The notes under the pieces were generated by a model. It was not told where the DNA came from, searched no databases, and worked only from the letters and a program-made list of their open reading frames with translations. From a virus, in IMG/VR virus record IMGVR_UViG_3300027749_000141, positions 1 to 53,506 of that record: DNA of 53,506 nucleotides, one strand, 5' to 3'. The translations under genes were made by a program, and so were the position numbers. Numbering within the stretch: position 1 is the stretch's first letter; each line of letters begins with the position of its first letter. This document shows, piece after piece, positions 7,040-14,746 of the stretch.

Positions 7040-7376
7040 CAGTTTAAAAATATTAATCGAACTATTTGATGTTGCACTAGAATCAGATAATCCTGCTGTT
7101 AAAAAAGCATTGAAAAATCTGTTGCTAGTTGCAACGTTAGTTCACAGTGAAAACGAAAAACCTCTACGTGGCCCGTTGTATGCACTTGTTAATGAAGTCG
7201 AAACGCTAAAGAAGAATTTTACTATATTGTCAATGGAGTTCAAGCAAGCAGAACACGACCGCAAAATTGGCAAACTTCCGGTATCTAGTGGCAACGGGAG
7301 TGGGCAATCCTATCAATATCCTTATTTACAACAAAGTAGTTATTTAAAAGAATTAACCAGCTGGGGTTTAAAGTGA
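7029..7376 (+). CDS. Hypothetical protein
   Basis: 115 residues. The N-terminal 80 are helical with a likely short coiled coil (ALVNEVETLKKNFTILSMEF), and the tail is Ser/Gly/Tyr/Gln rich before LKELTSWGLK. No known domain recognised. It overlaps both neighbours (11 nt upstream, 4 nt with the dpdA-like gene), so it is part of the same operon. Confidence 0.7.
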   Translation: MEDNSLKILIELFDVALESDNPAVKKALKNLLLVATLVHSENEKPLRGPLYALVNEVETLKKNFTILSMEFKQAEHDRKIGKLPVSSGNGSGQSYQYPYLQQSSYLKELTSWGLK

Positions 7377-9106
7377 ATAGAGACTTAACTACTGCGCAGA
7401 AAGATTATGCAATTTTTTTGCCAGCAACATCAGGGTTTTACTCGACATTTATCGGTAAACAACGATATAGCAATTATGTCGATCCTGCCCGCATACCAAC
7501 TTCATTTAAAAGCGGTATGGCAAGTCTTAACTACTTAGAACCAGATAAGGGTGCATTTTACTACAACTGGTGTTTATACTCTGCAGGACACGCTAACTTA
7601 GACCTTAACAAGTATGACGAAAGCGAAGATATGTTCCGTAATAGAGATAGAAGTACTAGTTGGGTGCTAGGCGACTCAGGAGGGTTCCAGATTGGTAAAG
7701 GTGTATGGGAAGGCGAGTGGCGCGATCCGACTAGTGCAGTTGTGCAAACAAAAATGGCTGAGTGTATTGCAAAAGGAATAGAAACTGTTCCTGTACTTGA
7801 CAAAGACGGTAATCCCATTGTTAATAAAAAAGGTATTGCCAGGACTACTAAAATCGATCATGTTAAAGTCTATCAGGCACGTTTAGATGCTGCTCAAAAG
7901 AAAAGAGAGCAAGTGTTAACGTGGATGGATGCGTTAATGGATTATGGCATGGTACTTGATATTCCAGCGTGGGTTGAAAGAAGCCCTGCAGGAAGATTAG
8001 CAACAGGAATTACAAGCTACGACGAAGCAGTCGAAGCAACGATTTATAATAATGAATACTTTATGAAACATCGTAACGGAAACTGCAAGTTCTTAAACGT
8101 ACTACAAGGCGAAACACACGCACAAGCCGATGACTGGTACAGTAAGATGAAAGATTTTTGCGATCCTGCAAAATATCCAGACAATCATTTTAACGGATGG
8201 TCGATGGGTGGACAAAATATGTGTGATGTTCACCTTGTCCTTAAAAGACTAGTAGCATTACGCTTTGACGGTTTATTAGAAACAGGACTGCATGATTGGA
8301 TGCACTTTTTAGGCACGAGTAAATTAGAATGGGCATGCTTGTTAACTGACATCCAACGTGCTGTTAGAAAATATCATAATCCTAACTTTACTATTAGCTT
8401 CGACTGTGCAAGTCCGTTCTTAGCAACTGCTAACGGGCAAATATACATTCAGACAGAAACCGAAGATAGGAAAAAATGGGTCTATCGAATGGTACCAAGT
8501 GTTGACAATAAAAAGTATGCACTTGACACTAGGTTGTTTAAAGATGCTGTTATACAAGATGGAATTTTTAAGAATTTTGAATCAAGTCCGTTGATTGACC
8601 AAGTGCAAATCAAAGATGTCTGCATATATGCACCAGGTGATTTAAATAAAATTGGCAAAGAAGGTAAAACTTCTTGGGATAGTTTTAGTTATGCAATTCA
8701 AATGGGGCACAATGTGTGGAGCCATCTTAATGCAGTGCAAGAAGCAAATCGTCAGTACGACAATGGTAAATATCCTGCCATGATGGTTGCAAGCAAAGTC
8801 GAAGGAAAAAAGTTTCGGCAGTACAGTAGAAACTTCTTTAAAGATATAGTCGATGACATATTTGCAGCAGATACTCGAGATAAAGCAAACGCAATTATCG
8901 AACAGTATAACAGATATTGGATGGATATTCCAGGAACACGCGGTGCAATTGGTGCAAAGACTGTTAATTCGTCAACACAATTTGCCGTTTTCTTTGACGA
9001 AGAAGAGGATGATAGTGTACACTTAGAACACGGGGGCGAGCTTGAAGACAACATCGAACAAGCTGAAGCTATTTTAGATGAACTTGAACAGAGTGTAAAG
9101 GCATGA
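7373..9106 (+). CDS. dpdA: DpdA-type DNA guanine transglycosylase (TGT superfamily)
   Basis: Predicted to swap guanine in DNA for a 7-deazaguanine base, as described for phage DpdA enzymes, which shields phage DNA from host restriction. 577 residues, longer than bacterial tRNA-guanine transglycosylases (about 375). The TGT hallmarks appear in order: LGDSGGFQ (D101), VLQGE (Q244-G245), MGGQ (G278-G279), HFLGTS (311-315) and ISFDCASPF, where D343 aligns with the catalytic nucleophile Asp (D280 in Z. mobilis TGT). The acidic C-terminus (FFDEEEDDS onward) is extra. The start is GTG, overlapping the previous stop (GTGA). folE, queE and a QueD-like gene downstream supply the expected precursor pathway. 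Action on DNA rather than tRNA is inferred from family resemblance and context. Confidence 0.82.
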   Translation: MNRDLTTAQKDYAIFLPATSGFYSTFIGKQRYSNYVDPARIPTSFKSGMASLNYLEPDKGAFYYNWCLYSAGHANLDLNKYDESEDMFRNRDRSTSWVLGDSGGFQIGKGVWEGEWRDPTSAVVQTKMAECIAKGIETVPVLDKDGNPIVNKKGIARTTKIDHVKVYQARLDAAQKKREQVLTWMDALMDYGMVLDIPAWVERSPAGRLATGITSYDEAVEATIYNNEYFMKHRNGNCKFLNVLQGETHAQADDWYSKMKDFCDPAKYPDNHFNGWSMGGQNMCDVHLVLKRLVALRFDGLLETGLHDWMHFLGTSKLEWACLLTDIQRAVRKYHNPNFTISFDCASPFLATANGQIYIQTETEDRKKWVYRMVPSVDNKKYALDTRLFKDAVIQDGIFKNFESSPLIDQVQIKDVCIYAPGDLNKIGKEGKTSWDSFSYAIQMGHNVWSHLNAVQEANRQYDNGKYPAMMVASKVEGKKFRQYSRNFFKDIVDDIFAADTRDKANAIIEQYNRYWMDIPGTRGAIGAKTVNSSTQFAVFFDEEEDDSVHLEHGGELEDNIEQAEAILDELEQSVKA

Positions 9107-9624
9107 ATAGAGACTATACTGGTGTAACAACAGACGATGCTACTTTTTTTATAGGTAAAGAAATAGAACATACACCCGCATACGGAAAGAAAACGTTGTT
9201 TATAGTAGGCAGACATTCGGTAGGAGACATTGAACATCACATCGACAGCACCATTGAACATTTGTTCTTTGGTGCGAACCATAGCTTTAATCCAGAACGA
9301 CAAGATTATGCAGCATGGGCCGAATGGGAAGACATGATTACATATTTTCTCAACCTTGGCTATCTGTGTAGTTTAGATATTCCACTAAGTGCAACTGAAG
9401 AATTTCACGACGGCAGCTTTAACGAGTATAACAACTTTATACCGCAAATCCGAGTTCCGATTCCTTATATTAGATTTTGGAACTACAACACCATGATTAA
9501 AATCGACGATATCGGTTTTAACTCGACTAATCCGGGTGTATGGACTCACAGTTTGCACGATTTACAAGATCGTGCAAAATTTACTAACTGGGCTGAATAT
9601 AAAAAAGACGAGATCTTAAAATGA
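9103..9624 (+). CDS. Conserved unknown protein paired with dpdA
   Basis: 173 residues, soluble. The ATG overlaps the dpdA stop (ATGA), and the next gene overlaps in the same way. The N-terminus MNRDYTGVTTDDATFFIGKE partly echoes that of the DpdA protein (MNRDLT). His-rich positions (GRHSVGDIEHHID, TEEFHDG, WTHSLHD) could bind metal but no known motif is complete. I recall homologous uncharacterised proteins in cyanophages. Tight coupling to dpdA suggests a role in making or placing the deazaguanine base; this is inference and no reaction is assigned. Confidence 0.75.
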   Translation: MNRDYTGVTTDDATFFIGKEIEHTPAYGKKTLFIVGRHSVGDIEHHIDSTIEHLFFGANHSFNPERQDYAAWAEWEDMITYFLNLGYLCSLDIPLSATEEFHDGSFNEYNNFIPQIRVPIPYIRFWNYNTMIKIDDIGFNSTNPGVWTHSLHDLQDRAKFTNWAEYKKDEILK

Positions 9625-10049
9625 CAAGAAAAAGAAGTATCTATGCACCCTATGCGCCTACGTGTGTACTACCTGGTTGTGATAACAGAGTTAGTTATCA
9701 TGACATTGTTACAAAAAGTGACGGTACTCCGGGAATCCACTGGAAAGCATGCTGTGAACTGCACCGCAATGAAAACAAAGACGAGTCCGACACATACAAA
9801 CTTTCAAGAGGTTGTGAAAATAAAGACGGTAGGTTAGGTTTAGGTTTTTCATGTGAAAGTACAGCTATTACAGAATCAAGTAAATTAGATTACGATCACT
9901 GGAACGGTAATAGATTTGATCAATCAGAGGATAATATTGTTGTATTATGCAAAGACTGTCATTCAAAAAAATCAGTAATATGCAAAGACAACTTGAACAG
10001 GTATTCCTATGTTAATCCTAATTTTAATGACTTTTTTGAGTTAGTATAA
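9621..10049 (+). CDS. HNH-type nuclease-like protein
   Basis: 142 residues. The C-terminal half carries LDYDHWNGNRFDQSEDNI and then LCKDCHSKKS, which fits the HNH beta-beta-alpha-metal core (catalytic D-H, mid N, CxxCH zinc knuckle). A second Cys-rich part lies at the N-terminus (TCVLPGCDN, ACCELH). It overlaps both flanking genes by 1-4 nt, unlike most freestanding homing endonucleases, which usually interrupt operons. It might be a domesticated HNH enzyme of the modification locus or a mobile nuclease that inserted neatly. Family call is good; role unknown. Confidence 0.75.
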   Translation: MTRKRSIYAPYAPTCVLPGCDNRVSYHDIVTKSDGTPGIHWKACCELHRNENKDESDTYKLSRGCENKDGRLGLGFSCESTAITESSKLDYDHWNGNRFDQSEDNIVVLCKDCHSKKSVICKDNLNRYSYVNPNFNDFFELV

Positions 10050-10402
10050 TGACAAATAAAATGATATTTGTCACTTTTAAGAAAGAAGGAATACATCATT
10101 ACCCTGATGCGTTATCTAACCCAGCGTTAGCAGATGTGTCATTTTTAGGTCTTCCGCACCGACACATGTTTCACTTCAAAGTTTGGATTAGTGTAGTACA
10201 CAATGATCGAGATATTGAATTTATATTGTTTAAAAGATGGTTGACTTCATTATACAATGATGCTATACTTGAACTTAACAACAAAAGTTGTGAGATGATC
10301 AGCGACGATTTACATGATGTTATATATCAAAAATACCCAGATCGCAAGATTTGGATTGAAGTCTCCGAGGACGGAGAAAATGGTTCTTTCATTCAATACT
10401 AA
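10049..10402 (+). CDS. QueD-like T-fold protein without the catalytic cysteine
   Basis: 117 residues with the layout of 6-carboxy-5,6,7,8-tetrahydropterin synthase/PTPS: an early His pair (IHHYPDA, 16-17), HRH (37-39) where QueD has the zinc-binding HGH, RDIEF (54-58) in place of the (M/V)DF segment, a CEMISDDLHDVI helix (81-92) where QueD has PTxEN, and WIEVSEDGE...Y at the end. The catalytic Cys that precedes HGH in QueD is absent (VSFLGLPHRH). It may therefore do other chemistry on a pterin or deazaguanine substrate, such as a decarboxylation or base-modifying step, rather than canonical QueD activity. Position between dpdA and folE/queE supports a pathway role. The fold assignment is from motif order only. 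Confidence 0.6.
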   Translation: MTNKMIFVTFKKEGIHHYPDALSNPALADVSFLGLPHRHMFHFKVWISVVHNDRDIEFILFKRWLTSLYNDAILELNNKSCEMISDDLHDVIYQKYPDRKIWIEVSEDGENGSFIQY

Positions 10403-10657: not shown

Positions 10658-11740
10658 ATGAGTAGAATCTTTCTTGTTGATTTAGAAGCAGTTGAGACAA
10701 GATACACAGGTGAGTGGAAAGACCACTTGCCTGCGGTTCTCACTAACCAAGGACATCATGTTACTATTATTTCTGGACCTAATGACATCCCTAGTGCAAC
10801 TACTCCAGGTGCCTTTCTTAATTTTGGTGGGACTAACATTTATAAGGCCAACCAAGTTGAACAAATCGGCCGATTATTTTGCAATGGTGACATCCAGCCA
10901 AATGATCATTTTATTTTTACTGATGCATGGCACCCCGGTATCATTAACTTAAAATACATGAGTGAGTTACTGGGTATTCCAGTAACTATACATGGCTTAT
11001 GGCATGCTGGCAGTTATGATCCACAAGATTTTTTAGGACGACTTTGTGGCCATCAGCCCTGGGTTGATAGTGCCGAACGCAGTTTCTTTTATGCGTTTGA
11101 TTATAACTACTTTGCTACAGATTTTCATATTGACATGTTCGCAGAGAATCTGCTTAGACTACAACCAGCTACTGTAAGAGCATGTTATATGAATGAAGAA
11201 AATCAAAAGTTTGTACGCACAGGTTGGCCTATGGAATATATGGCTACTGTGTTAGACCCATATAAAGGCACAGAGAAACGTGATCTTATATTATTTCCAC
11301 ATAGAATTGCACCCGAAAAACAAGTTGAAATTTTTAAAGACTTGCAATCACGGTTACCGCAATATGATTTTGTAATTTGTCAGGAACAACAGCTAACCAA
11401 AAGTGAATATCACAAATTACTAAGCGAAGCAAAAATTGTGTTTAGTGCAAACTTACAAGAAACATTAGGTATTAGTTGTTACGAAGGTGCATTACTTAAT
11501 GCAATACCAATGGTTCCTGATAGATTAAGTTATGTTGAAATGTACAATCTACATTTTAGATACCCGTCAGAATGGACTGAAAGTTTCGAATCATATCAAA
11601 CACACAGCGTTAAATTGTGCAATACTATTATTAACTATATAGAAACATATGACGAATTAGTTCCTGCTATAGAACATCAGGCACACTTCTTAACACAGCA
11701 GTTCTTTTCAGCAAATAAATTATATGACAACATCAAATGA
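10658..11740 (+). CDS. GT-B glycosyltransferase (GT4-like)
   Basis: 360 residues. The C-terminal half has the GT4-type donor site: FPHRIAPEKQVEIFKDL (about 212-228), then ETLGISCYEGALLNAIP (about 270-286), matching the E-x(7)-E region of retaining GT-B enzymes. The N-terminal half (IFLVDLEAVETRY, WHPGII, TIHGLWHAGSYDP) would form the acceptor domain. T4-like phages use GT-B enzymes to glucosylate DNA bases, but this protein is not clearly an alpha- or beta-glucosyltransferase homologue. Being in the dpdA-queE run, away from the surface glycosyltransferases at 22-28 kb, it might decorate DNA; this is speculative. Confidence 0.8.
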   Translation: MSRIFLVDLEAVETRYTGEWKDHLPAVLTNQGHHVTIISGPNDIPSATTPGAFLNFGGTNIYKANQVEQIGRLFCNGDIQPNDHFIFTDAWHPGIINLKYMSELLGIPVTIHGLWHAGSYDPQDFLGRLCGHQPWVDSAERSFFYAFDYNYFATDFHIDMFAENLLRLQPATVRACYMNEENQKFVRTGWPMEYMATVLDPYKGTEKRDLILFPHRIAPEKQVEIFKDLQSRLPQYDFVICQEQQLTKSEYHKLLSEAKIVFSANLQETLGISCYEGALLNAIPMVPDRLSYVEMYNLHFRYPSEWTESFESYQTHSVKLCNTIINYIETYDELVPAIEHQAHFLTQQFFSANKLYDNIK

Positions 11741-12098
11741 TAATTCAATAACAATTACCGGAATAAGTGGAAATAGCATAACATCTACTCCGTATACTAT
11801 ATCAACTATGGCTTCAGATACAATTACATTTCCTTACACTAACTCTAACTCGGGTACATTTACTATTAACAGCGGATCTGGATATGGTACAATATCATCA
11901 TCTTCTTCTATGTATGATTCTATTCATAGCGACTGGTCGTTTGTTCCGTTTAGTAACTCTTGGCCAGAATATGTTGATTTTCAAAAAATGGCTAAAGAGT
12001 ACCCCGGACTTGAAATTGCCTACGAAAAGTTAAAAACTACATACAAACTATGCATCGATGACTGGGAAGAACAGAAAAGGAATAAAAATGGCAAATAA
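11724..12098 (+). CDS. Hypothetical protein with Ser/Thr/Gly-rich N-terminal half
   Basis: 124 residues; starts 17 nt inside the preceding gene. Residues 1-70 are low-complexity Ser/Thr/Gly/Asn with beta-repeat character (SNSGTFTINSGSGYGT), and 80-124 form a helical, more conserved-looking end (EYPGLEIAYEKLKTTYKL). No domain recognised. The end overlaps the start of the phosphoribosyltransferase gene. Confidence 0.65.
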   Translation: MTTSNDNSITITGISGNSITSTPYTISTMASDTITFPYTNSNSGTFTINSGSGYGTISSSSSMYDSIHSDWSFVPFSNSWPEYVDFQKMAKEYPGLEIAYEKLKTTYKLCIDDWEEQKRNKNGK

Positions 12099-12591
12099 AC
12101 TATATTACAGCTGGTCACAAATAGAAGGAGCATGTTTAGAAATTGTTAGACAGCTTGCTGCCGATAATTGGAAACCTGATTACATCGTTGGTATAACACG
12201 CGGTGGTGCAGTTCCTGCAGTGTTAATTAGCCAATACACCGGAATTCAAATGAAACCGTTAGAAGTTAGTCTACGAGACAATGGCGACTGTACAACTGAT
12301 TGCGGAATGGCCGAAGATGCGTTTAATCGAAAACAAATTCTCGTAGTTGATGATATTAATGACTCGGGCGCAACTATTGCTTGGATTAAAGATGACTGGA
12401 TGCAGTCTACGATGCCAGATCATGTATCCTGGGAAACAATTTTTGGCAGCAATGTTAGATTTGCTACAGTGTTTACAAAAGCATCTAGCAAAGAAACTGT
12501 TGAATATTCAGTAGAGGAAGTTGAAGACAGCACTTGGGTCGTGTTTCCTTGGGAAGACTTTTGGAGGAATGATGTCAGATTTAACAATTAG
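12088..12591 (+). CDS. Phosphoribosyltransferase
   Basis: 167 residues from the ATG at 12088, preceded by AAAAGG; the frame is also open upstream to 12058 but that start lacks a ribosome binding site. The PRPP-binding motif ILVVDDINDSGATI (about 84-97) and the IVGITRGGAVPAV loop (33-45) are typical of type I phosphoribosyltransferases, in the style of hypoxanthine or xanthine PRTases. It probably salvages or redirects a purine-like base; given the deazaguanine genes around it, the base could be a modified purine, but nothing in the sequence fixes the substrate. Confidence 0.88.
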   Translation: MANKLYYSWSQIEGACLEIVRQLAADNWKPDYIVGITRGGAVPAVLISQYTGIQMKPLEVSLRDNGDCTTDCGMAEDAFNRKQILVVDDINDSGATIAWIKDDWMQSTMPDHVSWETIFGSNVRFATVFTKASSKETVEYSVEEVEDSTWVVFPWEDFWRNDVRFNN

Positions 12592-12780: not shown

Positions 12781-13452
12781 ATGGCACACAATTCATCAAA
12801 AACAGATCCAGTATTAGGCAAATTAGTTCACGAGCATTTAGTTAAATTAGGTGTAGAAACGCCAGTAACAGAAAAACTGTTAACATCATCAGAAAAAGTT
12901 AATATCATTCAAGATAAGTTTTATGATATTATGGTAGCGTTAGGATTAGATTTATCCGACGACAGTCTAGCAGACACGCCTAAACGTGTTGCAAAAATGT
13001 TTGTCAACGAAATATTTTGGGGACTCGATTATGACGCATTTCCGAAATGTACTACTATTCAAAATAAAATGGGATACAATGAAATGTTGATTGAACGCAA
13101 CATTAACGTGCAAAGTAACTGCGAACATCACTTTGTAATAATCGACGGGCTAGCAACAGTTGGGTATATTCCAAAAGATGTTGTACTTGGTCTAAGCAAG
13201 ATTAATCGGGTAGTTGAATACTTTTCAAAACGTCCGCAAGTACAAGAAAGATTAACAGAACAAGTATTCCATGCATTAGAATATATTTTAGATACTGATA
13301 ATATTGCAGTAGTTATTGATGCAAAACATTATTGTGTTGCTGCAAGAGGTGTAGAAGATACTGGCAGCTCTACTGTTACCAGTAAACTAGGCGGTGCATT
13401 TAAAAACGATCCAACTACTCGTGCAGAATTTATGAGTATTGTTAACAAGTAA
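12781..13452 (+). CDS. folE: GTP cyclohydrolase I
   Basis: Converts GTP to 7,8-dihydroneopterin triphosphate, the first step both of folate and of 7-deazaguanine (preQ0) synthesis. 223 residues, the usual length. Zinc and catalytic residues are intact: NCEHHF (C114, H116, H117) and AKHYCVAARGV (H183, C185). The core GLSKINRVVEYFSKRPQVQE is canonical. Its own promoter and the queE gene 440 bp downstream mark this as the start of the deazaguanine precursor unit. Confidence 0.95.
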   Translation: MAHNSSKTDPVLGKLVHEHLVKLGVETPVTEKLLTSSEKVNIIQDKFYDIMVALGLDLSDDSLADTPKRVAKMFVNEIFWGLDYDAFPKCTTIQNKMGYNEMLIERNINVQSNCEHHFVIIDGLATVGYIPKDVVLGLSKINRVVEYFSKRPQVQERLTEQVFHALEYILDTDNIAVVIDAKHYCVAARGVEDTGSSTVTSKLGGAFKNDPTTRAEFMSIVNK

Positions 13453-13460
13453 GGAACTTT

Positions 13461-13901
13461 ATGAAACTAGAACCACAAATTCCAGCAGTAGGCATTACAC
13501 AAACGCACGACTGGGGCAAAAGTAAAATGTATGCGATTCGATGCGAATGCGGCAACACCGACGATGAAATTGAATTCATAGTAGAAGCCGACGAGTACAA
13601 TGTCACTGTTACTACATGGACGACTCAGAAAACTGTATATTGGGATAGACCAATCGATCTGCAAACTGCATATAAAATTAAAAATTCATTTCTAAGCAGT
13701 GCAACTTATGAAGTATTAAGTTTTCTAAACGGATTCCATCACCGACTTAAAATGTCTTGGAACTTGTGGTTCAATGGTTATCTTAAATATCAGCAATCGA
13801 CTATAATGTCTACACAACAAGCATTAAACTATGCAGAGGCACTGAAGTCTGCAGTTGAAGATTGCCAAGAATTTCGTAAACAGGATAAAGAATGTCAATA
13901 A
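13461..13901 (+). CDS. Hypothetical protein between folE and queE
   Basis: 146 residues with a Shine-Dalgarno AAGGAA. Contains one CxCG pair (IRCECGNTDDEIEF) that may form half of a zinc knuckle, beta-rich middle and a helical C-terminus. It is not QueD: no HxH or Cys-HGH pattern. Overlaps queE by 10 nt. A link to the pathway is suggested only by position. Confidence 0.7.
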   Translation: MKLEPQIPAVGITQTHDWGKSKMYAIRCECGNTDDEIEFIVEADEYNVTVTTWTTQKTVYWDRPIDLQTAYKIKNSFLSSATYEVLSFLNGFHHRLKMSWNLWFNGYLKYQQSTIMSTQQALNYAEALKSAVEDCQEFRKQDKECQ

Positions 13902-14746
13902 AAGTATCAGAATTATTTTACTCAATACAAGGCGAAGGACGCTACATGGGCGTCCCGTCTGTGTTTTTGCGAACGTTCGGCTGTAATTTTAAATGCCAAG
14001 GCTTTGGTGTGCCTAAAGGCAGTTTAAGTGGCGAAGCAGATGTTATTGCCGAAAAACAAGTAAAATATAACAAGTGGAAATCCTATGAAGAATTACCACT
14101 TGTATCTACCGGTTGCGATAGCTATGCAAGCTGGCATCCAAAGTTTAAGGATTTATCACCTACTATCAGGATTACCGACTTAGCTGCTAAAATTTTAGAC
14201 TTACTGCCAACTAAAGATTGGCAAGGTGAACATCTTGTTATTACAGGTGGCGAGCCATTGTTAGGCTGGCAGCGTAACTATCCGGATTTATTATCGCACA
14301 CATTGATGAGTAAATTAAAAGAGATTACGTTTGAAACAAATGGCACGCAACCACTAACTCCGGATTTCAAAAGCTATTTACAGAATTGGGGCATGCGACA
14401 CGGAAAAGATTCAATTACTTTTTCTGTTAGTGCTAAATTGAGTTGTTCAGGTGAACCTGCACACCTTGCAATCAAACCTGAAGTGGTGTGTGAATACGAA
14501 GAAGTCGGTTATGCATATTTAAAATTTGTAATTTCAACAGAAGAAGATGCAGAAGAAGCAATCGAGACTGCCGACATATATCGTGCTGCGGGATTTACAG
14601 GGCCGGTGTATTTAATGCCAGTAGGCGGTGTAACCGATGTGTATAATCTAAACTGCAAACGTGTCGCAGATATTGCATTAAAAAATGGGCTAAGGTACAG
14701 TGATAGGTTACACTTGCCACTATTTGGAAATAGTTGGGGAACATGA
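13892..14746 (+). CDS. queE: 7-carboxy-7-deazaguanine synthase (radical SAM)
   Basis: Makes 7-carboxy-7-deazaguanine (CDG) from 6-carboxytetrahydropterin. 284 residues. The family start (ELFYSIQGEGRYMGVPSVFLR-type) is followed by C31-x3-C35, while the third cluster cysteine appears to be C75 (STGCDSY), giving a CX3CX39C spacing instead of CX3CX2C or CX14CX2C. Such an insertion is known to me from cyanophage QueE homologues. VITGGEPLL (about 115-123) is the SAM-binding GGE motif. Overlaps both neighbours (10 nt and 4 nt). Supplies the substrate for DpdA or for a missing QueC. Confidence 0.92.
   Translation: MSIKVSELFYSIQGEGRYMGVPSVFLRTFGCNFKCQGFGVPKGSLSGEADVIAEKQVKYNKWKSYEELPLVSTGCDSYASWHPKFKDLSPTIRITDLAAKILDLLPTKDWQGEHLVITGGEPLLGWQRNYPDLLSHTLMSKLKEITFETNGTQPLTPDFKSYLQNWGMRHGKDSITFSVSAKLSCSGEPAHLAIKPEVVCEYEEVGYAYLKFVISTEEDAEEAIETADIYRAAGFTGPVYLMPVGGVTDVYNLNCKRVADIALKNGLRYSDRLHLPLFGNSWGT

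Follow-up and report, generated by a model that had tools for sequence, protein, structure and literature searches.

A QueD-like T-fold protein family of phages as a candidate to act on 7-carboxy-7-deazaguanine in place of QueC

Analysis of a 53,506-nucleotide stretch of viral DNA (IMG/VR record IMGVR_UViG_3300027749_000141; this whole stretch is the window referred to below) reveals that the 117-aa protein encoded at positions 10049-10402, which we label Q, is predicted to adopt a QueD-like T-fold that keeps the metal-ligand histidines of QueD and has lost its catalytic residues. Genes of this family are linked to those for FolE, QueE and a guanine transglycosylase, usually coexist with a separate QueD gene, and are found almost exclusively where full-length QueC is missing. 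On balance we judge it somewhat more probable than an even chance that Q is a QueD-derived, metal-dependent T-fold enzyme that acts on 7-carboxy-7-deazaguanine (CDG), replacing QueC, with decarboxylation to 7-deazaguanine as the likeliest reaction.

Fold and distribution of the Q family

10049-10402, plus strand: Q, QueD-like T-fold protein of 117 aa, ATG start, phrog_17812

Q belongs to PHROG 17812 (E 1e-33), a family whose function is unannotated, and Pfam and NCBIfam searches with Q recovered no meaningful match; a Pfam match to the PDZ domain (E 0.08) was dismissed. Relatives were detected in at least 118 viral contigs, in 588 stretches when a profile was used, and in 26 isolate-phage records, indicating that the reading frame is not a chance one. 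The isolate phages infect Pseudomonas, Cellulophaga, Vibrio, Acidovorax, Rhizobium, Sinorhizobium, Xanthomonas, Aeromonas, Synechococcus and Chryseobacterium, and the copy from a Faecalibacterium phage was recovered with a more distant query. A search for a host origin yielded no plasmid matches and, among genome contigs, a single match on a contig that also bears a phage polymerase and clamp. A scan of IMG/VR for relatives of the Q copy of phage phiST recovered none. The domain also occurs within longer proteins: in Vibrio phage Bakedbeans (L183:14212-15363) it is the C-terminal portion of a 383-aa protein whose N-terminal domain is of unknown kind, in Chryseobacterium phage MA9V-3 a longer ORF ends in it after an N-terminal part that is unrelated, and the BFVD models A0A6J5LEZ6 and A0A8S5V119 likewise look like Q fusions.

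An AlphaFold2 model of Q, built from 74 homologues (pLDDT 94.4, pTM 0.85), displays the beta-beta-alpha-alpha-beta-beta order of elements typical of the T-fold. Its top solved match is E. coli QueD (4NTK; Foldseek E 2e-5, TM 0.76), with which it aligns over 110 residues at 22% identity (VIA: Z 13.1, rmsd 2.0), and a Pyrococcus PTPS is also among the best solved matches. Weaker structural matches in the VIA comparison are FolB (Z about 10), a QueF-like protein (5K0P, Z 8.7) and urate oxidase (Z 8.6). The sequence-only reading had assigned Q to the QueD-like T-fold and named structure prediction and comparison as the check; both were run, and the model together with its match to 4NTK confirms that assignment. 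Sequence searches give a fainter signal: the PTPS family model PF01242 does not match the Q of the window and matches just 3 of 45 Q homologues (best E 0.033), a profile HMM of Q recovers chance matches only among PDB sequences, and profile-profile comparison of Q with phage QueDs aligns the C-terminal half alone, at 64% probability. Homology between Q and QueD is thus indicated by the structure and by that segment.

Residues of the putative active site

In QueD (COG0720/PTPS), H16, H31 and H33 are metal ligands, Cys27 and the Asp70-His71 dyad are catalytic, and Glu110 anchors the pterin. Alignment of Q with QueD of E. coli MG1655 and 19 phage QueDs, combined with conservation across 154 distinct Q homologues, identifies the following codons:

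10094-10096, plus strand: His16, aligned with QueD metal ligand His16; invariant in the 154 sequences
10145-10147, plus strand: Leu33, at the position of QueD catalytic Cys27; invariant Leu
10157-10165, plus strand: His37-Arg38-His39, matching QueD H31-G32-H33 with its two metal ligands; both His invariant
10199-10219, plus strand: HNDRDIE (codons 51-57), family-specific; Arg54 and Glu57 invariant, His51 in 150 of 154
10286-10294, plus strand: Ser80-Cys81-Glu82, aligned with QueD TSE (Glu86); invariant
10367-10372, plus strand: Glu107-Asp108, with Glu107 as the equivalent of pterin-anchoring QueD Glu110; Glu107 invariant

Thus Q shares with QueD a T-fold of equal length, the metal-ligand histidines and the Glu110 equivalent, with SCE at the place of TSE. 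It differs from QueD in reading HRH for HGH, in carrying new invariant residues (R54, E57 and C81), in falling below the Pfam PTPS threshold, and in lacking Cys27 and Asp70-His71. His16, the HRH motif (37-39) and a C-terminal WIEV...Y element are present as had been read from the sequence, and the noted replacement of the catalytic Cys by a hydrophobic residue holds for the whole family: every homologue has Leu at the position, and alignment columns 29-36 are free of Cys throughout. Beyond this earlier observation, the Asp-His dyad is gone as well, since Q has Y69-N70 there and column 70 is variable; a DH occurs somewhere in columns 60-80 in 8 rows, away from the dyad position, and that of phage ACP17 stands right before the SCE motif. 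With both catalytic elements missing, Q is not a QueD. The retained histidines suggest that it is a metal-dependent enzyme with a putative metal site; R54, H51, E57 and C81 have putative roles of their own.

Loss of the catalytic residues could also be expected of a decayed, functionless QueD, an explanation whose probability we put close to nil: 11 examined positions (H16, L33, H37, H39, F41, R54, E57, S80, C81, E82 and E107) are invariant in 154 sequences from unlike phages, and the linkage to the genes described below is strict. In the separate QueDs of the phages, the Cys, the Asp-His dyad and the Glu are all invariant. Many phage QueDs (in L088, L089, L192, L195 and others) have HC...HGY in place of HGH, with one metal-ligand His missing.

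Gene neighborhoods and the relation to QueC

The genes around Q in the window are as follows:

7373-9106, plus strand: guanine transglycosylase (DpdA-like, 577 aa) with an invariant DSGG..Q motif
9103-9624: uncharacterised 173-aa protein, with conserved counterparts in 57 of 79 Q loci
9621-10049: HNH endonuclease gene, its TAA overlapping the ATG of Q
10658-11740, plus strand: glycosyltransferase-like gene with weak glycosyltransferase matches in Pfam; in 68 of 79 Q loci
12058-12591, plus strand: purine phosphoribosyltransferase-like gene (xanthine/guanine); in 54 of 79 Q loci
12781-13452, plus strand: folE, GTP cyclohydrolase I (TIGR00063, 1.6e-71)
13892-14746, plus strand: queE, CDG synthase-like radical SAM protein (phrog_2076, 1e-53)

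Q therefore does lie between dpdA and folE/queE, as had been stated. The transglycosylase escapes both Pfam and PHROGs searches; its AlphaFold2 model (pLDDT 87.5) has tRNA-guanine transglycosylases (TGTs) as all six of its best PDB matches (the best at E 6e-7, TM about 0.5); as far as fold and DSGG motif go, this justifies the name dpdA. We collected 179 Q loci and counted the 79 with at least 8 kb upstream and at least 6 kb downstream. At least one of folE, queE and a transglycosylase of the window type is present in all 79 (folE in 77, queE in 71, the transglycosylase in 63), counts that are inflated by the kinship of close contigs. The linkage persists in contigs that have no recognisable polymerase or none that is similar (L028, L032, L039, L063) and is also seen in isolate phages of differing gene order.

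Presence and absence of the pathway genes was compared between 12 isolate phages with Q and 15 queE phages without it, the latter picked by QueE similarity and yielding no match to the Q profile. Of the isolates with Q, 11 of 12 encode FolE and as many QueE. The PTPS family is above cut-off in 29 of 41 Q records, including 10 of the 12 isolates, and Vibrio phage D479 has a two-domain QueD frame below cut-off that resembles that of KVP40. No full-length QueC was detected in the 12 isolates, 11 of which have nothing above cut-off; across the 41 Q records a single one exceeds it, with a partial match. D479 has a 69-position partial QueC match, and KVP40 and D527 have the same kind of partial match in addition to a full QueC. 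Conversely, all 15 phages without Q have QueC above cut-off, 13 of them at E 1e-46 or better, the weaker or atypical cases being SKa-4 (3e-20) and YB07 (partial, 1.5e-8). QueF exceeds the cut-off in 6 of 15 phages without Q but in 0 of 12 with it. The large Vibrio phages illustrate the swap, KVP40 having QueC and QueF without Q, and D479 having Q without full QueC, and Vibrio phage 2.275, described below, is a further example; a QueF-bearing schizotequatrovirus carries 15% dPreQ1 (PMC12028318). As the 27 isolates are not phylogenetically independent, we claim no significance for this QueC/QueD pattern. Given that a separate QueD is usual in Q phages and full-length QueC is absent from them, Q appears to stand in for QueC rather than for QueD.

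The shared fold and metal site might instead point to a QueD with a different catalytic set that converts dihydroneopterin triphosphate to CPH4, and no QueD was found within the 53.5-kb window. That window is a fragment, however, and in the relative L003 the QueD gene lies about 54 kb upstream of Q. As most Q records have a separate QueD, and Cys, Asp and His are all missing from Q, we reject it as a QueD replacement and attach very little probability to such alternative chemistry.

A role without catalysis, in which Q is an accessory protein that would bind CDG and pass it on to the transglycosylase, leaving dCDG in the DNA, appears unlikely to us. It would fit the loss of the catalytic residues alongside retention of the ring- and metal-binding ones, the frequent adjacency of the Q and transglycosylase genes, which overlap in Faecalibacterium phage Roos, and equally the exclusion with QueC. 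However, Q pairs in several isolates with unlike transglycosylases (the window type, phrog_10773 or phrog_887), Vibrio phage 2.275 has a transglycosylase of the window type with QueC and QueF instead of Q, and the new family-specific invariants R54, E57 and C81 suggest catalysis.

In phage Roos, the Q gene overlaps that of a phrog_887 transglycosylase, and a Vut_1 transporter gene comes next; the phage lacks both QueE and QueD, and a sub-threshold fragment is all that was detected of FolE. This gene set indicates that Q does not depend on a pterin pathway made by the phage, placing it at the base-tailoring step. Without QueE, the CDG of Roos would need a host source; the Vut_1 transporter could import preQ0 or preQ1 instead. 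The combination of Q, a Vut_1/YhhQ-type transporter and a transglycosylase in the absence of biosynthesis genes would also suit another 7-deazaguanine as the substrate of Q, namely preQ0 or preQ1, host-made or imported. Since FolE and QueE are both encoded by the remaining 11 isolates with Q, whose pathway ends at CDG, we regard this substrate as quite improbable.

Proposed reaction and companion genes

In light of the above, action on CDG would best match the set of genes found with Q. The suggestion of an altered chemistry, made from the sequence before and placed here downstream of QueD, gains support from the fold, the conservation pattern, the separate and catalytically intact QueD, and the near-exclusion with QueC. 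We propose that Q descends from QueD/PTPS and no longer produces carboxytetrahydropterin; that FolE, the separate QueD and QueE would generate CDG; and that Q, replacing QueC, would then act on this product. In this picture E107, which is retained, and the SCE motif would receive the guanine-like ring, and the carboxylate at C7 would point towards the family-specific Arg54, His51 and Glu57 and a metal bound by H16, H37 and H39. Q would most likely convert CDG to CO2 and 7-deazaguanine, which the neighboring DpdA-like transglycosylase would exchange into DNA. Given that the ring-anchoring Glu and the metal site are kept, an invariant Arg is gained and the place of QueC is taken, the carboxylate of CDG is the target that best explains the data.

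We prefer decarboxylation because Cui et al. in 2023 reportedly described 2'-deoxy-7-deazaguanine (dDG) in phages together with a predicted 'CDG decarboxylase, DpdL'. DpdL is reported to be predicted to act on CDG in phages with 7-deazaguanine DNA, and we take it to be a candidate identity of Q; the context of Q (FolE, QueD and QueE without QueC) suits it, and the expected co-occurrence of these genes and a transglycosylase, without QueC, is found in the isolate phages with Q. If the DpdL and Q families are the same, the prediction of the function is not new, and what is added here is the fold, the residues and the exclusion with QueC. We know of no T-fold decarboxylase. That Q is the first one, and that removal of CDG in addition starves CDG-dependent host defences (type IV CBASS Cap9, Qat QatC), is a long shot; if true, one small enzyme would both modify phage DNA and disarm immunity that needs CDG to tag proteins. 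CDG as a branch point has precedent in QueC and QatC/Cap9 (PMC13329287, which also cites Cui et al. 2023 on new phage 7-deazaguanines).

QueC (PF06508) holds the same pathway place as proposed for Q, the step after CDG, but its fold is unrelated, being Rossmann-type, and it depends on ATP and ammonia (PMC13329287). QueF and QueF-like proteins provide a T-fold working on 7-deazaguanines, QueF acting on preQ0, but are structurally more distant from Q (5K0P, Z 8.7) than QueD is (Z 13.1). The proposal assigns this widespread, unannotated phage family to a specific step of the 7-deazaguanine pathway, with a reaction that can be tested. If it is correct, phages with Q should carry a CDG-derived base made without QueC, a pterin-synthesising T-fold would have been turned into a carboxylate-removing enzyme, and presence of Q with absence of QueC would be a simple genomic marker for predicting the DNA modification of a phage.

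Among the companion genes, the HNH gene is probably a homing insertion, as just 2 of the 79 flanked Q loci have it. Phage Phosso has, immediately ahead of Q and at the same position as the 173-aa gene, a gene annotated as 'glycosylase'. No large transglycosylase is seen beside Q in phiST, MA9V-3 and D479; members of phrog_20335 (259-285 aa) lie near Q there (L091:12795-13571, L095:12785-13576 and L187:12683-13537) and may represent a small transglycosylase type. The phosphoribosyltransferase-like gene often adjoins queE or folE, and its product could serve in salvage or activation of the deazaguanine base. Of the 12 isolate phages with Q, 5 (ACP17, PA5oct, Phosso, X1 and BUCT-ZZ01) have the glycosyltransferase-like gene, against 0 of 15 queE phages without Q; given this co-conservation, further glycosylation of the modified base is possible.
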